Positions 1 to 19,690 of a stretch of DNA of 21,312 nucleotides are shown here, piece after piece. The stretch lies in IMG/VR virus record IMGVR_UViG_3300030060_007771, positions 13,584-34,895 of that record; one strand, given 5' to 3'. This stretch comes from a virus. Both the position numbers and the translations under genes were made by a program. The notes below the pieces were generated by a model that made no database searches, was not told the origin of the DNA, and saw nothing but the letters and a program-made list of their open reading frames with translations. Numbering within the stretch: position 1 is the stretch's first letter; each line of letters opens with the position of its first letter.

Positions 1-575
1 GTTATTGTGGCCGTTTTTGTTTCAATTGGTTGAGGCTTTGCAACTACTTGGAACCTTCTTCCAACTATTGAAATAGACTTAGTTGAATCACCAGCAAAGT
101 CAGCCACAGTAGGATTATATCTTGAATCTATTCCTCCACCTGGAGCAACGTTAAGATAACAAACATCTGAATCAGATAATATAGCAGTGTATCCGTATGT
201 TGCATTTCCATTGGCAAAATTAGTTGTTGTAGGAGATATTTGGGCATTTTGTCCTGCACTAGTTAAAGTTAGTGCTGTTGGAACAGCAGTAACTGTTGGC
301 ATTCTTGCAATATTTTTTGGTAACGTTACTAACTTATACTTACAAACCTGAGTTTCGTCTGGTACAGCTTCAACTAATGGTAATGCTTCAATAGCTTGTC
401 CGTAGTAATTACTACCTAAAGAGTGATTAACATCCCATAAGTTATAATCTATCTCATCATCTGCTAATGCAAACTGAGTAATTTCAAAAAATTCAGAACC
501 TTTAGCTAAAAGTTCTCTACCCTTTTTTGTTAAGATTGCGTCTACCGTAATTGTTGTTTTGTCTAAATATCCCAT
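1..575 (-). CDS. Conserved phage structural protein, 3' end outside window
   Basis: An open frame runs from ATG at 575 to the left edge without a stop, giving 191 residues; the C-terminus lies outside the window. The start is supported by a good ribosome binding site (AGGAG, about 8 nt upstream) and by a promoter-like TATATTTATA 27 nt upstream. The protein begins MGYLDKTTITVDAILTKKGR and continues with ELLAKG, ITQFALADDEIDY and a GSNYYG segment. From memory this N-terminus is a recurring signature of virion-associated proteins in T4-like and distantly T4-like phages, but its exact role is not known to me. After about residue 90 the sequence is rich in Thr, Ala and Asn and looks beta-rich. It has its own promoter after the large baseplate gene, which fits a protein needed in quantity. 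I am confident that it is a gene and moderately confident of the family. Confidence 0.85.
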   Translation of the reverse strand, partial: MGYLDKTTITVDAILTKKGRELLAKGSEFFEITQFALADDEIDYNLWDVNHSLGSNYYGQAIEALPLVEAVPDETQVCKYKLVTLPKNIARMPTVTAVPTALTLTSAGQNAQISPTTTNFANGNATYGYTAILSDSDVCYLNVAPGGGIDSRYNPTVADFAGDSTKSISIVGRRFQVVAKPQPIETKTATI

Positions 576-5229: not shown

Positions 5230-6564
5230 CTAAGTTATTTGTAAGTTAGACCAATCCCTTGGCAAACCTCTTGCAGCCCTGTGGTCAAAGTATTCTTGTT
5301 CAGTTGCAAAAGAATACGTGACTCCTCCTGGAGAATCAAAGTACACTGTTGGGCTATCAGCAGCTTTTCTATATACTCCTCCAACTGTTCTAGTTATTTT
5401 AGCTGCGTCTGATATTCCTCCATCAATTTTGGTTACAGGGTTTGGATTGTCTCCGCTGGATCTAACCGACTGTTGGGCTCCGCCAGGTATTTCAACCCAT
5501 TCTCCACCACCTCTTTCTCCTTCAGCCCATCTTAATTGTATCCATCTTCCTTCGCCTACAATATAGTCAAAGAAGTCATCAAATTTAGAAACTCTTTCGT
5601 CATGGTCTTCGTCTCTAACATAATTTCCAGTAGGTATATAAACTACTTCTTCACCAATAGTTTGAGGAGTTAATTCGTTCAGTAAACCTCCTAAAACATT
5701 TACAAAATATGACTTAGAGTTGGTTGTTCCTTTTTCATTAGACACTTCAACATGGTATCTACCTCTTTGTTGTAGCTGCATATTTGTAACCCTAAGAACC
5801 TGGCCATTTCCTACAACCTGGTCTCTAGCATTACCTATACCGTCAGCATTAAATTTCCACGTGTAAGTTAACCCATCAGTTACTCTAGTACCTACTTCAT
5901 TTACATAACTATAACCCTTTGCAAAAAGTACTAATGTATTATTTGCGGCTATTTGTAATGATGGCTCTCCAAGTTCAGGAAGTACCTGTATAGAATATCC
6001 GTCGCTGTACTGTCCGTCTAAAGTACCGAAACCAGGATAGCATTGTACAAGCTGTATAACAGGTGCCTGTTTTGGTTTTGTTATTTCTTTTGGAACACGT
6101 TTAAGCTGAGTGATACTTGTGTCTACAATACCAATATAACTATTTGCTTGCCAAACGTGTTTTACTAAAGGGACAACATAATCATTATCAGAAGATCTAG
6201 CATTGTTTTCTGGTGTAGACATTATTACACCAAACCTAGTCCTATTCACCTTTGTGGTTGGTACCTGCTGGCCACCTTCTGTTTTAGATAGACCACCTGT
6301 ACTTGGGTCAGCTCCATTTACTTCGTAATTCTGAAGTTGTACAAAGTCATAATCTTGTAAATCAACCGCTCCATCATAAGCCGTAACCGTATCTGTTGTT
6401 GCTGTAAATGTTACGTCATTTCCATCTTCTTGTGTTTTTTGTATTTTTACAGGGCTCTCAGGCATCGTTTTACCTAACACCTGATCCATATTATGGGTTT
6501 TTATTCTAGGCTTTCTTGCTGGTGTAAACCTTGAAGCTAAAGATTTTTTTCTACGCATTACCAT
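5230..6564 (-). CDS. Baseplate-associated protein with Ig-like domain
   Basis: The protein has 444 residues. The N-terminus is very basic (MVMRRKKSLASRFTPARKPR), then comes a Thr- and Asp-rich region. Residues about 195-292 resemble an immunoglobulin-like beta-sandwich: a core Trp in LTYTWKF (W236), then LRVTNMQLQQRGRYHVEVSN, which matches the F-strand Tyr pattern of Ig/I-set domains, without the usual disulfide cysteines. The C-terminal part (about 300-444) holds acidic and Gly-rich stretches and ends in a segment with EQEYFDHRAARGLP. The gene lies 4 nt after the upstream gene, and ATG codons at 6564 and 6558 are both possible starts. Ig-like domains on phage particles are usually surface-exposed and bind weakly to cell-surface sugars, so a decoration or adsorption role at the baseplate edge is my inference. 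Confidence 0.75.
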   Translation of the reverse strand: MVMRRKKSLASRFTPARKPRIKTHNMDQVLGKTMPESPVKIQKTQEDGNDVTFTATTDTVTAYDGAVDLQDYDFVQLQNYEVNGADPSTGGLSKTEGGQQVPTTKVNRTRFGVIMSTPENNARSSDNDYVVPLVKHVWQANSYIGIVDTSITQLKRVPKEITKPKQAPVIQLVQCYPGFGTLDGQYSDGYSIQVLPELGEPSLQIAANNTLVLFAKGYSYVNEVGTRVTDGLTYTWKFNADGIGNARDQVVGNGQVLRVTNMQLQQRGRYHVEVSNEKGTTNSKSYFVNVLGGLLNELTPQTIGEEVVYIPTGNYVRDEDHDERVSKFDDFFDYIVGEGRWIQLRWAEGERGGGEWVEIPGGAQQSVRSSGDNPNPVTKIDGGISDAAKITRTVGGVYRKAADSPTVYFDSPGGVTYSFATEQEYFDHRAARGLPRDWSNLQIT

Positions 6565-6568
6565 AATA

Positions 6569-7729
6569 TTATCTCACTACCTTAAACAAATAATCTTTAT
6601 CATAAACTCTTTCTAAAAATGGAGAATCCATTGAACCGCTTATTACCTTAAATAAAAACTTATACCTTCTTCCTGAGTAAAACTGATCCATCCATAAGTC
6701 TACATAGTTTCCTTGATTATCACAGTTTATTTTTGTACTAGCCGTATTAAATGGTACTATTGTCTCTCCTGTTAGAGCATCTTGTATAGAATAATAACTT
6801 GAGCTAGGTAAATATTTTACAGCCAATTCTGCTGAGACAGTATCATATGTTTTTGTAGGATATTTTTCTCTACCAACAATTCTAAATCTTTCTTTACTTT
6901 GCCTCTTATATTCTCTTCTGTTATTTTTAACATATAATAGGTTATGTTTTCCTATATCTAAAGCAGAAAGGCTACCTGTTTCAAATGTTGTATCATCCCA
7001 TTCAACAACTAATCTAGGTTGGTAAATAGTATGTGTGTCTGTAGAAAAGAATTGCAATGTACCATAGTCTACAGAATTTTGCTCTTCGTTGGAGTTTCCT
7101 GTCTGTGTCGATCCACTTCTCAACACTATGAATCCTTCATTTGGGTTAGTTCCAGTTATCCAGTCATTCACTACGTTAGTAACGTTCATTAAAACATCGG
7201 TATCCTCATAATCAAATGTTTGATATACAGAATTATAGTTTGATCCAGTAAACCAAGTACATCCACCACCAGTAGTTGTAAATGAACCCGTTGTTCCAGG
7301 GTTATATGACGAAGTTGCCCAAACATTTCCGTATTGTGTTTCTCCGTCTCTATATTTCCAGCTTACTCCTTCTTTTTCAAATGATAGGGCTCCTCCTGCA
7401 GTTATCTTTCTTGTTTGTTTTCTGCCCTTACCCATTTCCCATGATTGAGATACTGGAAAAGCCTCAATACCATATTTTATAGCTAAAGCCTTTGCGTTTG
7501 ACGTATATAATTGTAAAGAATATGTTGGATTTGTTATTGACCCATTAACCAATGACTTAGATATATATGACAGGTCAAACTTTATTAGTATCCTAGAATT
7601 AAATATGTTTGAGGTACCTGAAGAAGATATTGTCTTTTCTAACTCTAATATTTCATCCAATCCACTATTAAGGCTTTCTGACCTTTCATATATTGTTGAA
7701 TCTTTCTGTGCTGTTATTGAGTAATACAT
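6569..7729 (-). CDS. DNRLRE-like baseplate/tail protein
   Basis: The protein has 386 residues. The first 240 residues resemble a DNRLRE-type domain: an opening Ala-x-x-Asp-Ser-Thr-Ile-Tyr-Glu motif, NSRILIKFDLS near residue 45, a VTNVVNDWITG segment with NEGFIVL after it, and a closing PRLVVEWDD. That order is typical of DNRLRE beta-sandwich domains, which occur in cell-surface and virion proteins. The last 130 residues form a second region with YYSIQDALTGETIVPF and FKVISGS motifs, unassigned. The ribosome binding site AGGAGATAAAA overlaps the stop codon of the gp6-like gene, so the two are probably translationally coupled. The position directly after gp6 suggests a wedge accessory or peripheral baseplate protein. 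The domain call is by eye; the functional role is inferred from context. Confidence 0.75.
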   Translation of the reverse strand: MYYSITAQKDSTIYERSESLNSGLDEILELEKTISSSGTSNIFNSRILIKFDLSYISKSLVNGSITNPTYSLQLYTSNAKALAIKYGIEAFPVSQSWEMGKGRKQTRKITAGGALSFEKEGVSWKYRDGETQYGNVWATSSYNPGTTGSFTTTGGGCTWFTGSNYNSVYQTFDYEDTDVLMNVTNVVNDWITGTNPNEGFIVLRSGSTQTGNSNEEQNSVDYGTLQFFSTDTHTIYQPRLVVEWDDTTFETGSLSALDIGKHNLLYVKNNRREYKRQSKERFRIVGREKYPTKTYDTVSAELAVKYLPSSSYYSIQDALTGETIVPFNTASTKINCDNQGNYVDLWMDQFYSGRRYKFLFKVISGSMDSPFLERVYDKDYLFKVVR

Positions 7730-7738
7730 TTTTATCTC

Positions 7739-9622
7739 CTAGTACGTTACCACCCTTCCTTTAATATCTAGAGCAGGAAACTTTACTTCAAATATTGCTG
7801 GATCCTGAGATGGGTATATAATTTTATTTTTTGTTGCTTCTGCAATATCATAGAAGTTGCCAGAATAACCGCTTTCTGCTTCATGTTTACAATATACGTC
7901 TAGGTCTTGTACTGTTTGTACACCCTCTATTTTATCTATTTCTGTTGCTAAATTTGCCAAGAATATAGGCTCATTAAATTGCCACTTTCTAATATCAAAT
8001 ATCTCAGCAATTTTTCTACTTGCCTTTAATATTACTTGTTGTGAATTGTGTCCAGGTAATGTTATTATAGAGTATTGTATTCCTATATTTATTATGAACC
8101 CATCCTTTATGTTTATTGCGTCAGTAAGCATTCTAAACTTACTTAAGTAATTTCTTATATTTTCCTTTGTTGCAGCATTTGCTTGTGTCAAGTTTCCACT
8201 TGCGTTATATGATAGTAGATATATGTTTAATGCTAAAGGATTTGCTACTTCCTCTCCTGTTTCTACTTTAAGTTGTTCATCTTGTACTATAAATGCTTTA
8301 GCAACATTTCCAAACCTAGCAGGCATTGAATACAATCTAGCAATAAAATCTTCTCTAGTAACTGCTCTATGCTGAGTGGCTGCAAAAGCCATGGCGTTTT
8401 GTCTTATTTCTTCTACTGACTCAAAACCTTTTCCTCCAGTTGCAGGAATAGGATTACTAACAGCAACAGATTTTTTTACAAATTGTACAGTTGCCGCAGA
8501 TAAACCATCGGTTTCCATAGTAAATGAAATACCAGTTATTTCTCGTATGGTTCCAGCTGGCACATTGTCTTTTATACCTCCTCCAACTACGTATTTGAAT
8601 TGTAATGTTTGATTTGCTGGAGCTTGACCATAGGCTCTAGTAAACATTGCGTTAGAAGGATCCCAAGCATTGTCCATTGCTGAAACATTTCCATAAGGCA
8701 AATTTAATCCCATATTATTTGGATTAGGAACTATCAATTCGTCTGCAATATTAGAGTTACCTGCTCCAAACATTATTTCAGTACCTAGGTCAGCTGTTAC
8801 GTTTACTTGAAATCTTCTACCAGTTTTTCTTAGCTTCAACAAGTAAGGCGTTTCATCTCTTAATTTAGAAAATTCAGGGTCTATTGTTCTAGTATTTTTT
8901 ACCTCTTCGTATACCATGTTTTGAGCTATATAGTCTACTTCATACCACCTATTACCTTCTTGATCTCTACAGTCAAGAACCTCTATTACATTATTGTCTC
9001 CAATTAAAACCTTATCATATTTTTTAGGAGATTGAAAAGAGAAAGTTTTATATTTAACTACACCTGACTTTGCTTCTACTTGTTTTTTCAAAAGATATGT
9101 TTCAGGGTTACCATCAGAGTCTATTTTGTATATTGAAACGTCTGTTGGATCTACTGAACTAGAAAAATTAAAATCTACTGGTTGTAGCGTGAAAAAAGGA
9201 GTTGCTGCAGTTTTTGTTTGGGCCCTTAGTCCTTCATCAATAATTGGAGCATATCTCCAATCTGGAGCCGCTGTTGCTCCTGTCCCTTGTACAGGTAATA
9301 ATACATAAACATCTAGTGTTACTCTTGATGGAGCAGATTGTAATGGTTTATATCCTACACCTCTAGCAATATCCATAACGTTTGACCTTTCTTGAGCATG
9401 CAATAAAAGGCTTTCTCTTAAAGAGTTGTCAATATAAAAAGAAAGAACGTCTCCAACATATGCCGACATCTCAACAAACATTTGTCCAGGAGAAGACTCA
9501 TTAAAATCGTTTGATATATCAGGAAAGTACACCTGCGAAAAGGTGTTTAGCTTATCTTTGAATCCCTTAAAATCTATATTTAGATAGTTTACATCCTTTG
9601 TTTGTAGCTTTTGTCCACTCAT
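7739..9622 (-). CDS. 6: gp6-like baseplate wedge protein (baseplate J family)
   Basis: At 627 residues it is close to T4 gp6 (660). In T4, gp6 dimers form the continuous inner ring of the baseplate wedge. The N-terminus has the family's typical features: FNESSPGQMFVEMSAYVGD (about 40-58), then YIDNSLRESLLLHAQE and VMDIARGVGYKP. Around residues 405-440 is the EIRQNAMAFAATQHRAVTREDF segment, the conserved core of baseplate J-like proteins. The C-terminal 100 residues include an INIGIQYSI strand and FLANLATEIDKIEGVQTVQD, typical of the gp6/J C-terminus. It sits 1 nt after the gp25-like gene, the same neighbour as in many contractile tails. The start is supported by AAGGATAT upstream. I am confident of this assignment. 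Confidence 0.93.
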   Translation of the reverse strand: MSGQKLQTKDVNYLNIDFKGFKDKLNTFSQVYFPDISNDFNESSPGQMFVEMSAYVGDVLSFYIDNSLRESLLLHAQERSNVMDIARGVGYKPLQSAPSRVTLDVYVLLPVQGTGATAAPDWRYAPIIDEGLRAQTKTAATPFFTLQPVDFNFSSSVDPTDVSIYKIDSDGNPETYLLKKQVEAKSGVVKYKTFSFQSPKKYDKVLIGDNNVIEVLDCRDQEGNRWYEVDYIAQNMVYEEVKNTRTIDPEFSKLRDETPYLLKLRKTGRRFQVNVTADLGTEIMFGAGNSNIADELIVPNPNNMGLNLPYGNVSAMDNAWDPSNAMFTRAYGQAPANQTLQFKYVVGGGIKDNVPAGTIREITGISFTMETDGLSAATVQFVKKSVAVSNPIPATGGKGFESVEEIRQNAMAFAATQHRAVTREDFIARLYSMPARFGNVAKAFIVQDEQLKVETGEEVANPLALNIYLLSYNASGNLTQANAATKENIRNYLSKFRMLTDAINIKDGFIINIGIQYSIITLPGHNSQQVILKASRKIAEIFDIRKWQFNEPIFLANLATEIDKIEGVQTVQDLDVYCKHEAESGYSGNFYDIAEATKNKIIYPSQDPAIFEVKFPALDIKGRVVTY

Positions 9623-9623
9623 A

Positions 9624-10079
9624 TTATATATCCTTTATCTCTATTACAATTTCTTCTTCATCAATTGTATTATTTACTAAACTAATTTTTAATACGGCTA
9701 ATATTCCATGGGTTGGGTCTACTAAACCTGTTTGGCCAAACTTAGGCACGGTTACATCTAATGCATTTATTACAATATATGGTAACCACAATTCAATAGC
9801 ATCTCTAATCTCTGTTCCAACCTTTTCTCTAAGCGATTCAAAATTTGGTTCAAACAGGTAGTCTCTTAGGTTTGTTCCAAACTGGGGATGATTTATTCTT
9901 TCTCCTTTTCTTGTTAGTAATAGATTTTTTACATTTGCTATTGCAGCATCTATAGAAAAAAATGTCAAGTCAAATGCTGATCCATCTCTACCATTCATTG
10001 GAAAATTTACACCAAGAGCAATGTCTTCGTTATCATCCGCCACGGGACTAGATATTATTTCTCTTCTTATTCCTGCCAT
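9624..10079 (-). CDS. 25: gp25-like baseplate wedge protein (GPW/gp25 family)
   Basis: The 151-residue protein belongs to the GPW/gp25 family by its diagnostic motif LLLTRKGERINHPQFGTNLR followed by DYLFEP, residues 53-78. Family members join the baseplate wedge to the tail tube and sheath initiation site; T4 gp25 has 132 residues. The N-terminal 40 residues (REIISSPVADDNEDIALGVN and onward) form the usual lead-in, and the C-terminal part is a short beta domain ending in EEEIVIEIKDI. The start at 10079 shares one base with the stop of the upstream gene (TAATG), and there is no strong ribosome binding site, so translation probably depends on coupling. It is followed after 1 nt by the gp6-like gene, reproducing a gene pair common to contractile injection systems. 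Confidence 0.93.
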   Translation of the reverse strand: MAGIRREIISSPVADDNEDIALGVNFPMNGRDGSAFDLTFFSIDAAIANVKNLLLTRKGERINHPQFGTNLRDYLFEPNFESLREKVGTEIRDAIELWLPYIVINALDVTVPKFGQTGLVDPTHGILAVLKISLVNNTIDEEEIVIEIKDI

Positions 10080-11045: not shown

Positions 11046-11435
11046 CTATAGTGTGAAGTTTTGCGCGCTTAAAATGTTCTTAGCTTTGTTTTTAATTGCA
11101 GTATATGATGCCGCGTTTATTGGAGGTCCTGAAGGGCCATTAGGTGTTGGATGCGTTTCTTTTCCAAGAGCATCGCATAACTCTTCTATTAGCGCAACAA
11201 GCGTATCTCCAAGAACCATCTTTTCCTCTGCATCTAGTCCTAAATATATACCAGGACTATTTATTATCGTGTCTTCTCCCGTGTCTACATTAAATGTACC
11301 ATTAGTAGATATTCCAACAGACTTGTCTGAAAAAAGAAAAACAGAATCTGTTCTAGCATTAAATAGTATTCTATCTGAGCTTATTAGTACTTGTTTACCT
11401 GCATATTCTGCTGGTGGTACCGGTTGGTATGCCAT
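11046..11435 (-). CDS. Stand-alone baseplate needle (gp5 C-terminal beta-helix-like)
   Basis: The 129-residue protein has a run of about eight consecutive 8-residue units at positions 15-78, for example ILFNARTD, SVFLFSDK, SVGISTNG and TFNVDTGE. Octad repeats of this kind form the triple-stranded beta-helix needle of T4 gp5C and of VgrG-type spikes. After the repeats comes a helix (LVALIEELCDAL), then THPTPNGPSGPP and a short C-terminal helix; from memory this Pro/Gly segment is common in phage spike and baseplate proteins. None of the three upstream hub paralogues shows octads, so the needle seems to have been split from the hub. The ribosome binding site is GGAG, with a putative promoter 19 nt upstream of the ATG. 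It probably trimerises on the hub; that is inferred from the family. Confidence 0.75.
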   Translation of the reverse strand: MAYQPVPPAEYAGKQVLISSDRILFNARTDSVFLFSDKSVGISTNGTFNVDTGEDTIINSPGIYLGLDAEEKMVLGDTLVALIEELCDALGKETHPTPNGPSGPPINAASYTAIKNKAKNILSAQNFTL

Positions 11436-11479: not shown

Positions 11480-13744
11480 TTACAATATTGGATCCTCCCA
11501 ATCCTCAATTGCTATATCTAGGTCTTCCTTAAAAAGTTCAACGGCGTTGTCAATGGTTCTAAACATATATCCGTTTCTACCAGTAACCTCATACGTTTGT
11601 ATTTCTAATTCAAACCAGTATCCTTTGTCTATTTCATCCATAGGATCTATGTTTATTTCTGCAGCCGTTTTTATTTCTGTAGAAAAGGGAGGATTTTCTG
11701 TTTGATTTCTATCAAACCATACGTATGAATTACCCTTTTCTTCGGTATATAACATTATGTTGAATCCCTTATATGTTTCTAATACTCTTTGGCCTTTTTG
11801 AGATGGTGGAGGTGGAGGTGCAGGCGGTTCTCCTTGTCCATTTATTTGCGCCCTATACGCCTCAAGGTCTTTAGGAATTCCACCGCATATTTGTTGATTA
11901 CTCATTTCATATCCACCTACAAACGTTGCTATATCCACTTGATCTGCCTGCTCTTGAAGATACTGGTTTAATGATGCGTATCCAGGAGTATTATCAAAAT
12001 AATCTCCTACCCCTAATAATTTTATAGAAGCTGCTCCTCTTTCTTTTAACACCTTCATCATGGCTACTATAGTATTATCTGACCCATCAAGTTTGTAAGG
12101 TCTTCCTCCCAATGGTCCACTCATCAGTCTATTAAAATAACTAAACTTTAAGTCGTTGTATGTTTGGGTAACATTCCACTCAGACTTATCCAGGACCCTA
12201 TCCTTATTAAGTTCTGGCCTGCCTTGCATCTGTCTTGGCCATTGAGGTTTCGTATCATCTATAGTTATCCTATTTGTTCTCATCATTTCTTCAAACTGCC
12301 TTGCATCCATAGTTCGATTGTAGTATCCTCCAAATCTAAAGGATCCATCATACTTAAGGTATATTGGAAGTACTGATGTGAGTCTATCCTTCTTATCAAA
12401 ATATTTATTTATGTGTATAATACGAGCACCTAAACAATCTTTAACACTATCCCAACCTAGTGAAGAAATAGAGGTATCCAATATAACGTTCTTTCCTTCT
12501 AAGTCTCCAGGGTAGTCTACACATGCCTGGTATACCTCTTTGACAAGAGCTCGGGACTTATATTTTCCATATGTTCCTTGTGGTATATCTACAGACCAAC
12601 CAGTATAGCTATCTACTCCACCAGCAAGTTGATAAGCAAGATAACCTCCTATGATAATATCAGTTATTTCTTCGTCAACGTTGCTTTCTTCTTTTTCTTC
12701 TTTTTCCTCTTCTTTTATGTCTTCTTCTTTTTTATTATCCTCTACCTGTTTTTCTTGGTCTCTATCATCACCACCACTAGATTCTTTATTTTCTACTTCT
12801 GCCTTATCTATTTCTGCTTTAAAGTTTAATTCTGTTGGGCCTATCTTTGGAATTTTTGAAACGTTTCCATATGAATCTTGTCTAATATTATTTCCAATTA
12901 CTGAAGGTACTTCTATAGGAATTGTTTGTGTACAGGTTAAAATAACTACGGAACCATCTTTATTAGGGTCTTCTATTTTATATATGTTATCATAAGTAGT
13001 ATCGTCAATTTCAAATTCTCCAGGCGTTGGGCTGTGTCCATCACTTATTATAGTTATTGGGTCTCCATTTTCTCCTGTGGTCGACCACCAATTAGGGTAC
13101 TCTGCTCCTTTAACTGTGCTTCCAAATCTTATACTATGGCCAGACCTACCTTCAAGCATTACGTCTCCCTCATAAGGAAATAGCTTTTGTATATTTTTTG
13201 CATCAAATATTTTTCCTAGTGGAACGTCTGGCAAACCTGACCTAACAGTACCTGGATTAGACGTGTATTGCCCAGAAGGATTACATTCTTCAGCTTCGGT
13301 CGTTTCACTAGATACTCTTCTGTAACTTGAACCCGGTAATTGGTTATTATTAACGTCCTGCCATATGTTTATTGGAGGAAGATAATATAGTTCAGTAACC
13401 TTATGGTCTCTTTGAGCAGACTTTCCAGCTGCCGCCACAAGAGTTACTACTTCGCCTATCAGAGGAGGAGTCCATATTCCTACTCCAAAGTAAGGCCTGT
13501 AAAAACTTAAATTTTCATCTGGTACACCAAACTCATGTTCTAGTTGTCTAGCCTTTATTGCTCCAATAAATATTCTGGCTTGAGGATTGTAATCTTTGTG
13601 AGTGTCTTCAAGTACTATGTCTATCACTTCAGCAGATGCAAATCTCAAATTAGCTTGAGATGATATTTGCCTAGTGTTTGAATTTGGCCTTTTTCTAGTT
13701 TTTTTACTTTTTCTAAAAGATGATTTTGCTGCTCCTCTAGCCAT
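11480..13744 (-). CDS. gp5-like baseplate hub paralogue C, unknown cargo domain
   Basis: The 754-residue protein is the third tandem hub paralogue. Its first 290 or so residues align by eye with the other two: basic N-terminus, AEVIDIVL, PPLIGEVVTLV, YYLPPINIW, EECNPSGQ (about 153-159), PYEGDVMLEGRSGHSIRFGS (190-209), ENGDPITIISDGH and KIEDPNKDGSV. From memory this pattern is typical of gp5-type hubs of marine T4-like phages. An acidic Lys/Glu linker follows (310-360). Residues 360-635 form a domain I do not recognise, including GKNVILDTSISSLG and IKLLGVGDYFDNTPGY; no lysozyme signature is visible. A poly-Pro hinge (640-647) leads to a C-terminal module (about 655-754) resembling that of paralogue B. 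The start at 13744 shares one base with the B stop, with AGGAG upstream. Confidence 0.85.
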   Translation of the reverse strand: MARGAAKSSFRKSKKTRKRPNSNTRQISSQANLRFASAEVIDIVLEDTHKDYNPQARIFIGAIKARQLEHEFGVPDENLSFYRPYFGVGIWTPPLIGEVVTLVAAAGKSAQRDHKVTELYYLPPINIWQDVNNNQLPGSSYRRVSSETTEAEECNPSGQYTSNPGTVRSGLPDVPLGKIFDAKNIQKLFPYEGDVMLEGRSGHSIRFGSTVKGAEYPNWWSTTGENGDPITIISDGHSPTPGEFEIDDTTYDNIYKIEDPNKDGSVVILTCTQTIPIEVPSVIGNNIRQDSYGNVSKIPKIGPTELNFKAEIDKAEVENKESSGGDDRDQEKQVEDNKKEEDIKEEEKEEKEESNVDEEITDIIIGGYLAYQLAGGVDSYTGWSVDIPQGTYGKYKSRALVKEVYQACVDYPGDLEGKNVILDTSISSLGWDSVKDCLGARIIHINKYFDKKDRLTSVLPIYLKYDGSFRFGGYYNRTMDARQFEEMMRTNRITIDDTKPQWPRQMQGRPELNKDRVLDKSEWNVTQTYNDLKFSYFNRLMSGPLGGRPYKLDGSDNTIVAMMKVLKERGAASIKLLGVGDYFDNTPGYASLNQYLQEQADQVDIATFVGGYEMSNQQICGGIPKDLEAYRAQINGQGEPPAPPPPPSQKGQRVLETYKGFNIMLYTEEKGNSYVWFDRNQTENPPFSTEIKTAAEINIDPMDEIDKGYWFELEIQTYEVTGRNGYMFRTIDNAVELFKEDLDIAIEDWEDPIL

Positions 13745-16224
13745 TATGAATTCTCCTCATCTATCCAGTCTTCTATTTGTTCGTCTATAAACGCCTTAAT
13801 GGCAAATATATATCCTTCTGGACCAAACGCTTTTTCAGCGTCTTCACTTGGAAAGTCTTTACCTGCCAAATCATGGTATTCAGAGTATCCGCTTCTTAGC
13901 TGTCTTAAAAAGCTAAACATTGGGCCAGATGACGGTGAAGGTACCAGGTAGTCCTTAAACCCTTGCTTGTCCTGTATGTTTTCAATTTGAGGAGAAGGAA
14001 CAAAGGCAGTCTCCACATTATAGAAATACCAGGCTGGCTGATCGTTTCGCGTGTTTTCTGCAAACTCATCTTCAGCTCCTGTTTCTTGTAGTATTTTGAA
14101 TCCTCCATATACTTCTACCTCAAAGTATCCATCTTCTCTAGATATAACTATATCTTCTGCCGGGGGTTGTATAACATTTGTAGATACTGGTGCAGCTGTT
14201 GGAGGGTCTGGAAATAAAAATCCTTTCCAAGTTGTGTATGTATTTTCAGCATTCTCAGTACGCTTTTTTACAGAGTGATTGTAATAATCGCTGTATGTTG
14301 AACCTTTGCTGGGTTTATTTGATATTCCACTTGGATTTTTTCCTCCAGGTCTTCCATATATGTATGATGTTGGGGTTGCAAATCTTGCGTATATCTCAAA
14401 GGTTATTTTTCCTATATCCCTACTCTTGGTAACTAAATCATAGACGCTTCTATATCCTGATTTCATTTCTATTAGAGAATAAACTAATTGAGCATTAAGT
14501 CCAGGCTTACTACCCCTATAAGTAGCATTCAATATTGCTCTGTTGTATTCTGTTCTATTATGGGGTTTTGGAGTTATTCCTATCTCTGTTGGAGCAGTAA
14601 CTAGTTTTCCGTTTTTCCATTTACCTCCGCCTCCTTTTCCAAATGAAGTTTTAGGCCATAAATACCCTCCTGTTCCATCGTAATATGGTGGAACCCCTAA
14701 GGCTATTTCAAATTTTGTTCTTCTTACTCCTGTCCACTGTATTAGGCCGACACCACCTTGCCAATTTGCATATCTTGTAAACTGAGGGTCACTTTGGTTT
14801 GGTCCGTATGTTTTCTTTTTATATACTGTTTGCGTTTCAAATGCTCCAACACCACACCAACAACCTCCATCACACTTTGTTCCGCCTCTTTCTGTTGTAT
14901 TCACCCCATTCCAATATCCATTCTGATTAGATTTAGTTTGTGGTCCACTGCTCTTATCAGTACGCCATTTTTCCAAATTATATAGCGCACTGGCAACAGC
15001 TTTTCCAGGATCTTTACTTGGAGCAGATGTGCATATTGGTCCTGCACCTTCTGATAAAAAGTTTCCAATTAAAGCTGAAGCACCTTCAGGTGTAGCACCA
15101 TTTGCAACAAGGTCATCTACCATTTCCTTTAATAACAACTTTCTTTCATCGTTTCCATTGGCCTCATCTGCATCCCAACATTTTTTTACAACTCCAGTTA
15201 CCTCTTGGTTTGATTCAAAGTCATCATCTTCTTCTTGTTCTGAAGGCTGTTCTTCACAATCCCCTTCTTCATTCATTACGTAGCCTTCTGGACATGCATC
15301 ATCTTTTTCCTCGGTTTCGTCTTCTGGGTCGTCGTGTTTTTGTACCTCTTTGTCTTGTATAATATCTAAAGCCTTTTGTTCGGCTTGTTTTCTATCAAAT
15401 GTAGTGCCATAAGAGTCCCATATATCTGAGGCTACATATATTGGTATCAACTGTCCTTCACAATACATTATCACTGAACAATCCCTATTTATATCTTCTA
15501 TGTGGTAGTCTGAATCTTGAGCCACTGCGTGGCCGTTACTTATTATGGTTATAGCATCACCGTTTAGTCCTTCACTTGACCAGTAATTTGGAGTATCAGC
15601 AAAAGTAGAAGTACTACCCATCCTAATACTAGCGCCAAATCTTCCTTGTATTATTGTATCTCCTTCATAAGGAAACAGTGGAGCAATCTCTTTTTCAACA
15701 AACGTTTTACCTAAAGGTACCTCTTCTACCTGATCTTGTTTCTCTATTCCTGGGTTTGAACTATACTGGCCTGATGGGTTACATATTTCATCTTCAGTTG
15801 TATCTCCAAGAGCGTTTGTAGATATTCCCGCATTTTGATTATTGTTAACATTATGAAATACGTTTACGGCTGGAAGATAATATTTTTCAAACTTTATTGG
15901 GTTTTTTTGGCTCCCTTTACCCGCTCCCTTTACAAGTAATACATTCTCCCCTATTAATGGGTACTGACTATATAGGTTTTGTAGCATTGGGTGATACCAC
16001 TCAACATTTTCTAGTGGTTGATTTATTCTGGTAGTTGTCCTAGCTTGTACACATCCGACAATTCTTCCTCTTTGTGGATTAAATTCTGGATGGTTTGGGT
16101 GTAATATGACGTCAACTACCTCGGCTTTTTCCTTAATGACGTTCATAGCATTACTTGCTAATCCAGACTTAAAGTTTGGCCTAGTAAATTGAGTTTTATT
16201 TTGTGAAGTTTTTGCTCTTGCCAT
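13744..16224 (-). CDS. 5: gp5-like baseplate hub paralogue B with tail lysozyme domain
   Basis: The 826-residue protein combines the shared hub region (1-275; ICNPSGQ at 147-153, PYEGDTIIQGRFGASIRMGS at 185-204, IISNGH at 227-232) with a peptidoglycan-hydrolase module. A CPEGYVMNEEGDC motif (311-323) and an acidic linker precede it. The hydrolase spans about 350-670 and resembles the phage tail lysozyme family: GASALIGNFLSEGAG (381-395), where E392 is a candidate catalytic acid, and GGVGLIQWTGVRR (490-502), the family's conserved Gly-Gln-Trp-Thr-Gly region. In T4, the gp5 lysozyme opens the cell wall during tail contraction; this protein is the best candidate for that job here. Residues 690-826 form a C-terminal module shared with paralogue C. 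The start at 16224 follows paralogue A by 3 nt and has only a weak GAG ribosome binding site. Confidence 0.88.
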   Translation of the reverse strand: MARAKTSQNKTQFTRPNFKSGLASNAMNVIKEKAEVVDVILHPNHPEFNPQRGRIVGCVQARTTTRINQPLENVEWYHPMLQNLYSQYPLIGENVLLVKGAGKGSQKNPIKFEKYYLPAVNVFHNVNNNQNAGISTNALGDTTEDEICNPSGQYSSNPGIEKQDQVEEVPLGKTFVEKEIAPLFPYEGDTIIQGRFGASIRMGSTSTFADTPNYWSSEGLNGDAITIISNGHAVAQDSDYHIEDINRDCSVIMYCEGQLIPIYVASDIWDSYGTTFDRKQAEQKALDIIQDKEVQKHDDPEDETEEKDDACPEGYVMNEEGDCEEQPSEQEEDDDFESNQEVTGVVKKCWDADEANGNDERKLLLKEMVDDLVANGATPEGASALIGNFLSEGAGPICTSAPSKDPGKAVASALYNLEKWRTDKSSGPQTKSNQNGYWNGVNTTERGGTKCDGGCWCGVGAFETQTVYKKKTYGPNQSDPQFTRYANWQGGVGLIQWTGVRRTKFEIALGVPPYYDGTGGYLWPKTSFGKGGGGKWKNGKLVTAPTEIGITPKPHNRTEYNRAILNATYRGSKPGLNAQLVYSLIEMKSGYRSVYDLVTKSRDIGKITFEIYARFATPTSYIYGRPGGKNPSGISNKPSKGSTYSDYYNHSVKKRTENAENTYTTWKGFLFPDPPTAAPVSTNVIQPPAEDIVISREDGYFEVEVYGGFKILQETGAEDEFAENTRNDQPAWYFYNVETAFVPSPQIENIQDKQGFKDYLVPSPSSGPMFSFLRQLRSGYSEYHDLAGKDFPSEDAEKAFGPEGYIFAIKAFIDEQIEDWIDEENS

Positions 16225-16227
16225 TTA

Positions 16228-18516
16228 TTACTCGCACTTTCTCACTTTATCTTCTAATAAATCTTTTTCGTCTGGCGTCAATGACTGTTGGAAGCCGAAA
16301 GACCTATTACTATTTCTAAAAAAGTCATCTGCCCATACACAAAAGTCTTCTTTGTTCATACACTTCCAACCATCTACCCCCTTATTGTAATTAGGATCTG
16401 AACAGTCTTTTGGTGTGCCGTCCTCATTTGTTGGTTCCTTACCCACACCTTCTCCAGTATATTCACTAACCTTACATTGCGCTCCTTGCCAACCTGATTT
16501 TCCTGTTCCTCCAGAACCGTCAAGACTTGACCTTCTAGGTCCACTGCATCCACCATATACAAATGGTTTATAGTGCACGTTATTTGAGTCTAACAGGCAT
16601 TTACAAGGAGGATATTTTTTGTGTAGCATATTGCACCTACTTCTACAACAAGCTACTTGTTGCTTATCTGATTCTCCGCCAGTCGATTTATTTTTACCCT
16701 TAACCATTCCTCCACAGTATACTCTAAGTAATTCTTCTGAGTCCCAGTTTTTTCTGGTTCCCCAACTATCCTGATCGTTAAAGAATGAGTCTTTATATAG
16801 TGGTGCACCGTATGAATTTAGATGGAACATCACCATTGCATACTCTCTAGCTGTTTGATATGGCGGATAACCTGCAGCCTCTGCTTGTGCACTAATATCT
16901 TCAACTTTAGCTCCAAACTTCTCCCATACGCCTCTTCTCTGCGCTTTTCTAGAATCACTACTATTATTTAAGAAGTCTCTCATTGAGTCTGCCCACCATG
17001 GATAATTTAATTCTTTATAGTCTGCATGTTTACAAAAATCCTTTAATACTTCATAGGTGATTTGTACAGTTTGACCTTCATACTTACCATCGTAATACCA
17101 GCCCTTTGAAGCATCCTTTTTTGGTATTGTCACTTTATCTGGCCAATACTTTTCTATCATGCCTTCTTTTTTCATTCCATCATACAGTGTTTCAGTTGCT
17201 GCTCCTGTCCAGTGTAATATTCCTACCCAACACTCTCCTCCTCCTGAATTATATCCACCCTTTTTTAGTTTCCAAGATTCTTTCATCCAACCAAGGTCAC
17301 TGTATTTTTTAGAGCCTCCTCCTGCAATTGTATCTTGGACTATCTGCATGCATAAAGATTTAGTTAACCTTCTATCTAAACCACAAGTATGTTCTTTTGT
17401 TTTATTTTCTTCCGAGTTTGAAACGTCTTTTCTTGCAGCGGCTTCTTCAACCTCTTTAGCGCATGGAGAACAATCGCCATTAGTATCTTTTTTAGGGACA
17501 GTTCCATCAGGGCATTCAGGACAAGGTTCATCCTCTTTAACTGGTGGTTGTTCTTCGTTTGGTGCTTCTTCAGCAGGCTTTGGTTTAAACGGGTCTGGGG
17601 CAGGGGTTGGTGTATATCCTTCCTCTTCTCTTTGTGACTCTATTTGATTATCAAACGTTACCTCATACGAATCAAAAAGGTTTGAAGCAGTTGTTATATC
17701 CACAGATTGTCCATTACACATAAACATTATTGAAGCATCCTGGTTTGGGTCTTCTATATGATTAGGAATAGGTTCATCTGATTCATTTTTATCTTTTGTG
17801 CCAGGCCTGTGACCATTACTAATGACTATTATTGGGTCTCCATTTTCTCCGCCTCCAGAATAAAAATTAGGAGACAATCCAGTTTTATATGTACTACCAA
17901 ACCTAAGACTTTGGCCATGCCTACCTTCAAACATTACATCTCCTTCATATGGTTGTAATTTTTTTATTGGCATGTCTTGAAATGTTCTTCCTAGTGGCGG
18001 TTCTAAATTTACTTCTTCTTGTTCGGTTGTTTGTGCTGTAATTTGCCCTGAAGGATTACAATCCTCAGCCTCTGAAGGGGTAACGCTTAATAGGTTAATA
18101 TCAAAGCTAGAAGCAGGAAGTTGGTTGTGGTTAGGGTCGTCCCATACGTTTACAGCTGGAAGATAGTATAGGTTTTTACCTAAGTAAGATTTTTGAGTTG
18201 AGGCTGATGGAGCATCAACTAATAGTACTATCTCTCCAATTAGTGGAAAACCAAAAAAACAATTTGGAAGCATTGGTTTAACGTATTCTAATTGATCTGT
18301 CGGTAAATTAAAGTTTTCCAGCTTTCTTACTTTTGCATCACCTATTTGCCTGGTAGGGTATTTTTCTGAATCGTAGTCAGGGTGGCTTGGGTCTAGAATA
18401 ATATCTATAACCTCTGCACTTACACCTAATCCATCAGATATTTTTTTATTTAATGATTTATTAGCTGTTGGCTTCTTAAATTGTGTTTTATTTTGTCCGC
18501 TTTTAGCTTTTGCCAT
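16228..18516 (-). CDS. gp5-like baseplate hub paralogue A, Cys-rich hydrolase-like cargo
   Basis: The 762-residue protein is the first hub paralogue. Residues 1-290 carry the shared hub region (DCNPSGQ at 152-158, PYEGDVMFEGRHGQSLRFGS at 189-208, VISNGH at 231-236), and its N-terminus is nearly the same as that of paralogue B. A Pro/Glu linker is followed by a four-Cys cluster (C332, C335, C349, C352), a possible small metal- or disulfide-stabilised knot. Residues about 375-600 look like a cell-wall hydrolase: GECWVGILHWTGAATETL (427-444) resembles the Gly-Ile-x-Gln-Trp region of phage muralytic domains, with His replacing Gln. Which acid is catalytic is unclear. A second Cys-rich stretch lies at 620-660 (CCRSRC, then CKC and GGC). 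The C-terminal module of B and C is absent. The start overlaps the preceding gene by 14 nt. Confidence 0.85.
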   Translation of the reverse strand: MAKAKSGQNKTQFKKPTANKSLNKKISDGLGVSAEVIDIILDPSHPDYDSEKYPTRQIGDAKVRKLENFNLPTDQLEYVKPMLPNCFFGFPLIGEIVLLVDAPSASTQKSYLGKNLYYLPAVNVWDDPNHNQLPASSFDINLLSVTPSEAEDCNPSGQITAQTTEQEEVNLEPPLGRTFQDMPIKKLQPYEGDVMFEGRHGQSLRFGSTYKTGLSPNFYSGGGENGDPIIVISNGHRPGTKDKNESDEPIPNHIEDPNQDASIMFMCNGQSVDITTASNLFDSYEVTFDNQIESQREEEGYTPTPAPDPFKPKPAEEAPNEEQPPVKEDEPCPECPDGTVPKKDTNGDCSPCAKEVEEAAARKDVSNSEENKTKEHTCGLDRRLTKSLCMQIVQDTIAGGGSKKYSDLGWMKESWKLKKGGYNSGGGECWVGILHWTGAATETLYDGMKKEGMIEKYWPDKVTIPKKDASKGWYYDGKYEGQTVQITYEVLKDFCKHADYKELNYPWWADSMRDFLNNSSDSRKAQRRGVWEKFGAKVEDISAQAEAAGYPPYQTAREYAMVMFHLNSYGAPLYKDSFFNDQDSWGTRKNWDSEELLRVYCGGMVKGKNKSTGGESDKQQVACCRSRCNMLHKKYPPCKCLLDSNNVHYKPFVYGGCSGPRRSSLDGSGGTGKSGWQGAQCKVSEYTGEGVGKEPTNEDGTPKDCSDPNYNKGVDGWKCMNKEDFCVWADDFFRNSNRSFGFQQSLTPDEKDLLEDKVRKCE

Positions 18517-18877
18517 CTTTTACTTTAGGCTCTTCTTCCCACTCAACTTTAGTGGTTGTCTTTACAGTATCTAATAATTGTTTTTTCTCTTCATCAGAAA
18601 GATTAAAGTCTCCTCCTTCTGCTTCAGTTCTATTCATAGCTCTTTGTATTATACCGGCCATTTTTATTAGGGCATCATCATTTTTTATACCTACGTCTAG
18701 GTAGTCCTTTATTAGTGGTACTAGTATTGTTGCATCAGTTATATTCTTAACCAATGGTTGAAGCTGAGCTATAAGTGAATTTATTTGTTTTTCTTTTTTC
18801 TTTGAATTTGTATGTATTTCCTTTAATAAATCAGAAAAGCTTTTGCCTTCAAATATTTCTTCATCAAACTGTGACAT
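18503..18877 (-). CDS. Small helical protein preceding the hub genes
   Basis: The 124-residue protein is mostly charged and helical: a predicted coiled-coil-like segment (SFSDLLKEIHTNSKKKEKQI, about 13-32), then ILVPLIKDYLDVGIKNDDAL (51-70), KMAGIIQRAMNR and an acidic LSDEEKKQLLDTV helix. No membrane segment or enzymatic motif is seen. I recall similar small proteins next to gp5-type hub genes in marine T4-like phages, but cannot name the function. It has a GGAG ribosome binding site and a putative late promoter 29 nt upstream of the ATG, and its end overlaps the first hub gene by 14 nt in another frame, so the two are coupled. A hub assembly factor or chaperone fits position and size, as an inference only. 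Confidence 0.8.
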   Translation of the reverse strand: MSQFDEEIFEGKSFSDLLKEIHTNSKKKEKQINSLIAQLQPLVKNITDATILVPLIKDYLDVGIKNDDALIKMAGIIQRAMNRTEAEGGDFNLSDEEKKQLLDTVKTTTKVEWEEEPKVKDGKS

Positions 18878-19279: not shown

Positions 19280-19690
19280 TTAAAATTTAAGACCAAACCC
19301 TAGAGTAAGGTTTGTAGTCTTTTCACCTGTATTGTAAACCACCTTAGGGTCTACGTAAATATTGTTTCTAATTGTAAACAATTTACCGAATCCAACACTT
19401 AATGTTTCAGTGTCCAATCCGCTTGTTGCAGCGTATACAAAATATCCTTTTACAAAATATCTTGCATGGAAATCTAATTCCATATCTACTGTCGAGTCTG
19501 CTTGAGATACTGATGCTCCAACCATTAGGTTGTCTGTTACACCATATCCTACAGTTGGCGAAACTGCCCAATCTGTCCAAGCTACGTTTGCAACGTCACC
19601 AGTACCAATGTACCAATCGCCTTTAGTTTGCGCTTGTGTTCCAATAATAGTCGCACACGCTAAAACTACTGTTAAAATAATGTTTCTCAT
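19280..19690 (-). CDS. Phage-encoded outer-membrane beta-barrel protein
   Basis: The 136-residue protein starts with a clear Sec signal peptide (MRNIILTVVLACATIIGTQA, with likely cleavage in or after AQ at residues 20-21). Signal peptides ending in AQ before the mature chain are typical of Bacteroidota envelope proteins. The mature part alternates polar and hydrophobic residues in short strands with turns such as GYGVTDNLMVG and SVGFGKLF, and ends in Phe (LTLGFGLKF), the usual C-terminal signal for outer-membrane insertion. About 115 mature residues would make a small barrel of roughly eight strands, like OmpX/Lom-type proteins. A good ribosome binding site (AGGAG) precedes the ATG. Phage-encoded outer-membrane proteins can alter the infected cell surface, for example to block superinfection; that role is inferred. 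It may be of host origin. Confidence 0.82.
   Translation of the reverse strand: MRNIILTVVLACATIIGTQAQTKGDWYIGTGDVANVAWTDWAVSPTVGYGVTDNLMVGASVSQADSTVDMELDFHARYFVKGYFVYAATSGLDTETLSVGFGKLFTIRNNIYVDPKVVYNTGEKTTNLTLGFGLKF

Follow-up and report, generated by a model that had tools for sequence, protein, structure and literature searches.

The locus described here raises the question of why a phage with a contractile tail should carry three adjacent genes for one kind of baseplate hub protein, and whether the products are assembled into one spike or into separate ones. The textbook view is that phage spikes are homotrimers. In the preliminary description of this DNA, the genes were regarded as gp5-like hub paralogues with a common N-terminal region and unlike C-terminal halves, and either a mixed trimer delivering three different activities or alternative spikes were proposed.

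Gene Order and Features of the Locus

The window, i.e., the whole analysed stretch of 21,312 nt, is part of a 37,076-base virus record, and its tail operon is coded on the minus strand. In order of transcription, a 124-aa protein is followed by the hub paralogues h1, h2, and h3, a 129-aa tip protein, two small proteins, and gp25-like and gp6-like proteins. The features used below are as follows:

18503-18877, minus strand: conserved small protein, 124 aa, overlapping the start of h1
16228-18516, minus strand: h1, hub paralogue 1, 762 aa (ORF list, pairwise BLASTP)
17650-18516, minus strand: h1 N-terminal putative spike-base domain, about aa 1-289
16546-17391, minus strand: h1 cargo, aa 376-657, chitosanase-like fold in the model, with invariant GGExWxGILHWTG
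13744-16224, minus strand: h2, hub paralogue 2, 826 aa (ORF list, pairwise BLASTP)
15397-16224, minus strand: h2 N-terminal putative spike-base domain, about aa 1-277
14140-15159, minus strand: h2 cargo, Phage_lysozyme2, PF18013 (Pfam)
11480-13744, minus strand: h3, hub paralogue 3, 754 aa (ORF list, pairwise BLASTP)
12863-13744, minus strand: h3 N-terminal putative spike-base (OB-fold) domain, about aa 1-294
11840-12676, minus strand: h3 cargo, aa 360-637, SGNH-like fold in the model, nucleophile and His not conserved
11046-11435, minus strand: tip protein encoded on its own, 129 aa, homologous to the repeat-containing C-terminal half of single-gene hubs
9624-10079, minus strand: gp25-like baseplate wedge protein, PF04965, E 1.8e-10 (context)
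7739-9622, minus strand: gp6-like baseplate wedge protein (context; basis of the phage tree)

The family of the 124-aa protein was found at 125 loci. Judged by consensus match only, the 124-aa gene is closely preceded by a terminator-like hairpin (18962-18937, same strand), and no strong terminator was found from there to the 129-aa gene, with a single weak match inside h2.

Several other genes were noted in the surroundings. Next to the baseplate operon, at 19280-19690 (minus strand), a 136-aa protein is encoded that has a Bacteroidota-like signal peptide; it also occurs at L006 4055-4489, L007 2072-2482, and L009 266-676. It has a weak similarity, below the cut-off, to outer-membrane beta-barrels (PF13505, E 0.003); an outer-membrane protein encoded by a phage is unusual. 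In the baseplate region, the product of 6569-7729 (minus strand) has a weak similarity to a carbohydrate-binding module (PF24517, E 1.6e-4) and that of 5230-6564 (minus strand) to an Ig domain (PF13927, E 0.0014), both below the cut-off.

Shared N-Terminal Domain

The N-terminal regions of h1, h2, and h3 are 36-41% identical in pairwise BLASTP (E = 8e-59, 1e-57, and 1e-60) over a shared domain of 277-294 residues. Motifs CNPSGQ (at 153, 148, and 154 in h1, h2, and h3, respectively), PYEGD (at 189, 185, and 190), GRxGxSxRxGS, ISxGH, and IEDxNxD occur once each and in identical order in all three. Coordinates, alignment, and the five ordered motifs thus agree with the common region proposed before, and chance motif similarity is ruled out by E values of 1e-57 or better.

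AlphaFold2 monomer models of h3 and h1 had mean pLDDT of 54 and 57, respectively, with individual domains better defined. For the base domain of both models, the top ranks in Foldseek and structure comparison were phage and secretion-system spikes. Chain 9vzk_q of the P1 C3 baseplate ranked first for the h3 base domain with the best Foldseek E value (0.015), and its VIA Z-scores against the two base-domain models were 8.2 (115 aa, rmsd 5.8) and 7.7 (115 aa, rmsd 5.2). Chain 8kea_D of Anabaena phage A-1(L) ranked first for the h1 base domain, and further matches were 3qr8, the pyocin R2 spike, phi92, Mu, P2 gpV, and VgrGs. With moderate confidence, as the Z-scores are near background and pLDDT is low, the shared domain can be placed in the group of OB-fold spikes (P1 gp5, P2 gpV, pyocin R2, VgrG). 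Sequence similarity of the hub family to T4 gp5 was not detectable (hhalign probability 0.1), no match to the family was found in PHROGs, Pfam, or PDB sequences, and a sequence search of the base and cargo chains against solved structures in PDB gave nothing credible.

The gp25-like and gp6-like wedge genes lie downstream of the hubs in the window, and the same holds for gp6 in most of the hub loci whose length covers that stretch. The gp5-like nature of the hubs is therefore backed by fold and gene neighbourhood.

Cargo Modules

No significant similarity was found among the C-terminal halves of h1, h2, and h3 in pairwise BLASTP; they carry distinct cargo modules, as had been described. The cargo follows the position in the array, with a chitosanase-like fold in h1, a Pfam tail lysozyme in h2, and an SGNH-like fold in h3, and with one lineage as an exception.

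In h1, the base domain is followed by an acidic, Cys-containing linker, the cargo, and a Cys-rich tail. The cargo has no Pfam match. Its mostly helical model matched 7c6c (Z 8.4, 188 aa, rmsd 4.3), 6lwu (8.0), 2d05 (6.9), and GH80 5b4s (6.5), and a resemblance to the GH46 chitosanase fold may be stated with caution. One Glu is invariant in GGExWxGILHWTG. The model also matched 4nso_A (Z 6.3), a chain of an effector-immunity complex, which we take to be the wall-hydrolase domain of VgrG3.

The h2 cargo matches PF18013 in all eight arrays found (see below), with the best E value of 1.2e-12; in the window, the domain scored 28.8 bits against a cut-off of 28.2, and the whole protein 25.4. A conserved Glu is in GNFLSEG (387-393). 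Both the h1 and the h2 cargo are probably hydrolases of wall glycans, and neither had a match in cultured phages. Homology of the two is not claimed, as their profile match covers 10 columns around VGI-WTG with a probability of 5%. Weak matches of h1 and h2 to Tudor, Chlam_OMP3, and similar families were taken as chance.

The h3 module, at first called unrecognised, revealed an SGNH-like fold in the model, with matches to OatA 6vjp (Z 9.4, 126 aa, rmsd 3.2), 6wn9 (9.3), and 1fxw (8.6). The position of the GDS motif, placed by eye after strand 363-366 of the model, reads GGY in the window (366-368), L089, and L090, GDA in L092, L093, and L113, and GAS in L091, and the terminal His at the DxxH position is absent in all seven SGNH-fold h3 cargos. 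With its SGNH fold, the h3 cargo thus seems to be catalytically dead, and a binding or structural role is inferred for it. The idea that all three cargos are enzymes is not supported for h3, which lacks the GDS nucleophile and catalytic His. The proposal of three different activities holds only in part: the cargo modules do differ, but h3 looks dead and h1 and h2 are probably both wall glycan hydrolases. The h3 profile also had a weak match in PDB to a cellulosomal scaffoldin (E 0.009).

The exception to the rule of position is h3 of L006 (9923-12172), in which an h3-type base is joined to a cargo of the h1 type, with about 33% identity to the cargos of h1; the cargo is modular. A C-terminal domain of about 125 aa is common to h2 (aa 696-825) and h3 (aa 649-753) and absent in h1. 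It is about 50% identical between the two in L089-L091, with signs of exchange between paralogues, which indicates that parts are exchanged although the base domains stay distinct.

Three-Hub Arrays in Other Viruses

Searches with gp6 and hub profiles recovered about 150 loci, and among these there are eight distinct three-hub arrays: the window (with a near copy, L004/L007), L089, L090, L091, L092, L093, L113, and L005/L006. All are from uncultured records, mostly fragments. The three-gene order is therefore present in other viral contigs, as the preliminary description had proposed to check. Each of the eight arrays has exactly three hubs in the same order, between the 124-aa gene as the 5' boundary and a single tip gene, and the spacing from h1 to h2 and from h2 to h3 is -1 to +11 nt. 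Among the about 150 loci, none had two or four hubs; the longer records behind four of the arrays contained no fourth copy, and a genome scan confirmed no host-borne copy. Gene pairs as closely spaced as these are reported often to encode subunits of heteromeric complexes (PMC10666635).

Tip Gene and Origin of the Array

Microcystis phage Mel-JY01 and Flavobacterium phage immuto have a single gene at the same place, composed of the N-terminal domain and a repeat region, and this region is homologous to the separate 129-aa protein of the window. According to the tip-domain profile, most relatives have the tip fused to the hub, and it has a gene of its own in L062, L088, the L009/L010 clade, and the lineage of the window. 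The tip protein is predicted from homology and repeat pattern to be a beta-helix, and the 129-aa gene is, judging from the homology, the detached C-terminal half of an ancestral spike protein. The array therefore extends past h3, which the preliminary description took as its last gene. Single-hub relatives carry cargo in the same chain, namely VanY in L010 (PF02557, E 5.9e-13) and GH19 in L038. The single hub of L088 (2593-5007) has a cargo of about 550 aa without a Pfam match, and a separate tip gene.

A maximum-likelihood tree was built from 44 base domains, and all 24 hubs of the arrays fall into a single clade (bootstrap/SH-aLRT 100/99). Within this clade, h1, h2, and h3 are each one clade across phages, supported by 100/97, 76/45, and 100/99, respectively; the support of the h2 clade is weak once L006 is included. 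Since each array position has its own clade, one old triplication explains the arrays, and recent local duplication is ruled out. The gp6 tree covers 82 phages, among them seven of the arrays, namely those that could be placed in it. These seven group as a single clade (99), next to which stand 12 single-hub phages with a split tip (support of 100 for the two together); in the larger set around them, phages with a fused single hub prevail. The simplest history is a fused single hub, then a split of the tip, and then one triplication. Fused single-hub, split single-hub, and triple split forms all survive, so each step is testable.

Selection and Divergence of the Paralogues

The dN/dS ratios against the near copy are 0.11 for h1, 0.08 for h2, and 0.04 for h3 (over the available part of h3). 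They indicate that all three genes are under purifying selection and that their base domains are constrained to a similar degree. Hubs of the same type from different phages are on average 60.8% identical, and those of different types within one phage only 44.6%; the base domains have therefore not been homogenised. Fourteen positions are fixed in and private to one hub type, whereas shuffling gave a mean of 0.004. There is no alignment column in which every type is fixed and the types differ from each other, so determinants of specificity would be modest in number. Thirty-nine base-domain columns are invariant in all 24 array hubs.

Composition of the Spike

A 1:1:1 base heterotrimer of h1, h2, and h3 under a homotrimeric tip is the best reading of the locus and somewhat more probable than not, because the number of hubs is constantly three, the tip is single, the genes are coupled, and the base domains are not homogenised. 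These grounds are indirect; the precedent is the heterotrimeric VgrG complex of bacterial type VI secretion. In relatives, one protein carries both the OB-fold spike base and the tip. In the lineage of the window, the tip became a separate gene, and the base gene was then triplicated once, with each copy fused to its own cargo. With the tip detached, the intertwined tip chains and the cargo chains need not be the same polypeptide, and the base could therefore become hetero-oligomeric. One h1, one h2, and one h3 would form a pseudo-threefold base ring, on which a homotrimer of the 129-aa protein would sit. On tail contraction, the tip would cross the outer membrane, and the base would take its cargos into the periplasm on flexible acidic linkers. 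These would be a chitosanase-fold glycan hydrolase (h1), a tail lysozyme (h2), and a probably non-catalytic, wall- or sugar-binding SGNH-fold domain (h3).

The ancient single triplication, near-zero spacing, purifying selection, paralogue-specific residues, and single tip all fit a mixed trimer, and the match of the base fold to known homotrimeric spikes speaks for it as well. The low pLDDT of the monomer models, the weak support of the h2 clade, and the modest number of specificity determinants speak against it. Ancient retention of three copies would also be expected if three homotrimeric spikes each had a necessary job. Each paralogue could form its own homotrimer with the common tip, different virions or hosts using different spikes, and one tip gene would be enough for all of them. 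Loci for type VI secretion (T6SS) contain several VgrGs as alternatives to one another, and the gp5-like spikes of solved phage structures are as a rule homotrimeric, such as P1 gp5 and A-1(L) gp25 (PMC12810830, PMC10966104). We consider this unlikely, though worth keeping in mind, as one would expect an optional set to differ in copy number or to have lost members, which is the case in none of the eight arrays (a small sample). The fixed order and tight spacing in all of them favour equal production of the three proteins in each infection.

It is more doubtful still that one paralogue is the true spike base and the other two dock elsewhere on the baseplate, delivering wall enzymes there. Other baseplates do have several structural paralogues placed at different positions, and the separate tip protein would allow more than one OB ring to be stacked on the axis. 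However, base-domain conservation and dN/dS are similar in all three paralogues, and the shared invariant columns give no sign that two of them have left the axial role. A baseplate protein family of other function with an OB-like domain, and thus not a spike at all, would account for the lack of sequence matches and for fold matches that are weak as single statistics, but this is very improbable. Two different models both rank spikes first (9vzk_q, A-1(L), R2 pyocin, phi92, Mu, VgrG), the gene is among conserved baseplate genes near gp25 and gp6, as T4 gp5 is near gp6, and in relatives the hub chain also includes a tip, GH19, or VanY domain.

If the mixed trimer is correct, its origin would be one ancient triplication turning a homotrimer into a 1:1:1 base, with one copy of each cargo per virion and the homotrimeric tip already separate. 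The chances are about even that this is the first phage lineage with an obligately heterotrimeric, asymmetric spike. If a lineage has settled on three base paralogues that are co-transcribed and not interchangeable, with the tip detached, it would show how a symmetric puncturing device comes to be asymmetric in its build.

Comparison with Known Systems

T4 gp5, the hub subunit and tail lysozyme, together with gp5.4 likewise brings an OB-fold base, a wall hydrolase, and a beta-helical tip into the axial spike, and its gene is shortly upstream of gp6, like the hubs. In T4, one gene codes for a homotrimer with lysozyme and helix in one chain, whereas here there are three base genes and a separate tip gene.

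The single-hub relatives (Mel-JY01, immuto, L009/L010) have the same base-domain family, neighbours, and tip domain as the arrays, but one hub gene only, with the tip fused in Mel-JY01 and immuto and split in L009/L010, where the cargo is VanY.

In Methylophilales phage Melnitz (L178 3962-7005), gp5 is split into a gene for the OB domain with cargo and then a gene for the beta-helix with cargo, which are adjacent and overlapping. Both end in D,D-peptidase-like stretches. Melnitz has one OB gene only and was ruled out as a paralogue array; the split is an independent one, in a cultured phage of the T4/Kyanoviridae line.

The baseplate hub protein gp15 of A-1(L) carries lysozyme, endoglucanase, and peptidase domains (PMC10966104). 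Several wall-degrading domains are thus mounted on the hub, as in the arrays, but a single polypeptide carries them all, in a homotrimeric hub that is not part of the spike, and they are not spread over paralogues.

VgrG1, VgrG2, and VgrG3 of V. cholerae are three paralogous spike proteins, some with C-terminal effectors, like h1, h2, and h3. A heterotrimeric VgrG complex was reported in this T6SS, with C-terminal effector domains on VgrG1 and VgrG3, but the same paper argues that its apparent necessity reflects the loading of effectors rather than heterotrimer formation itself (PMC8668125). The VgrGs differ in belonging to a bacterial secretion system, in having base and needle in one chain, and in the lack of a dedicated tandem triplet. 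If the mixed trimer proposed here is true, the arrays would be a phage parallel to this disputed heterotrimer and a natural way to load several proteins on one spike.
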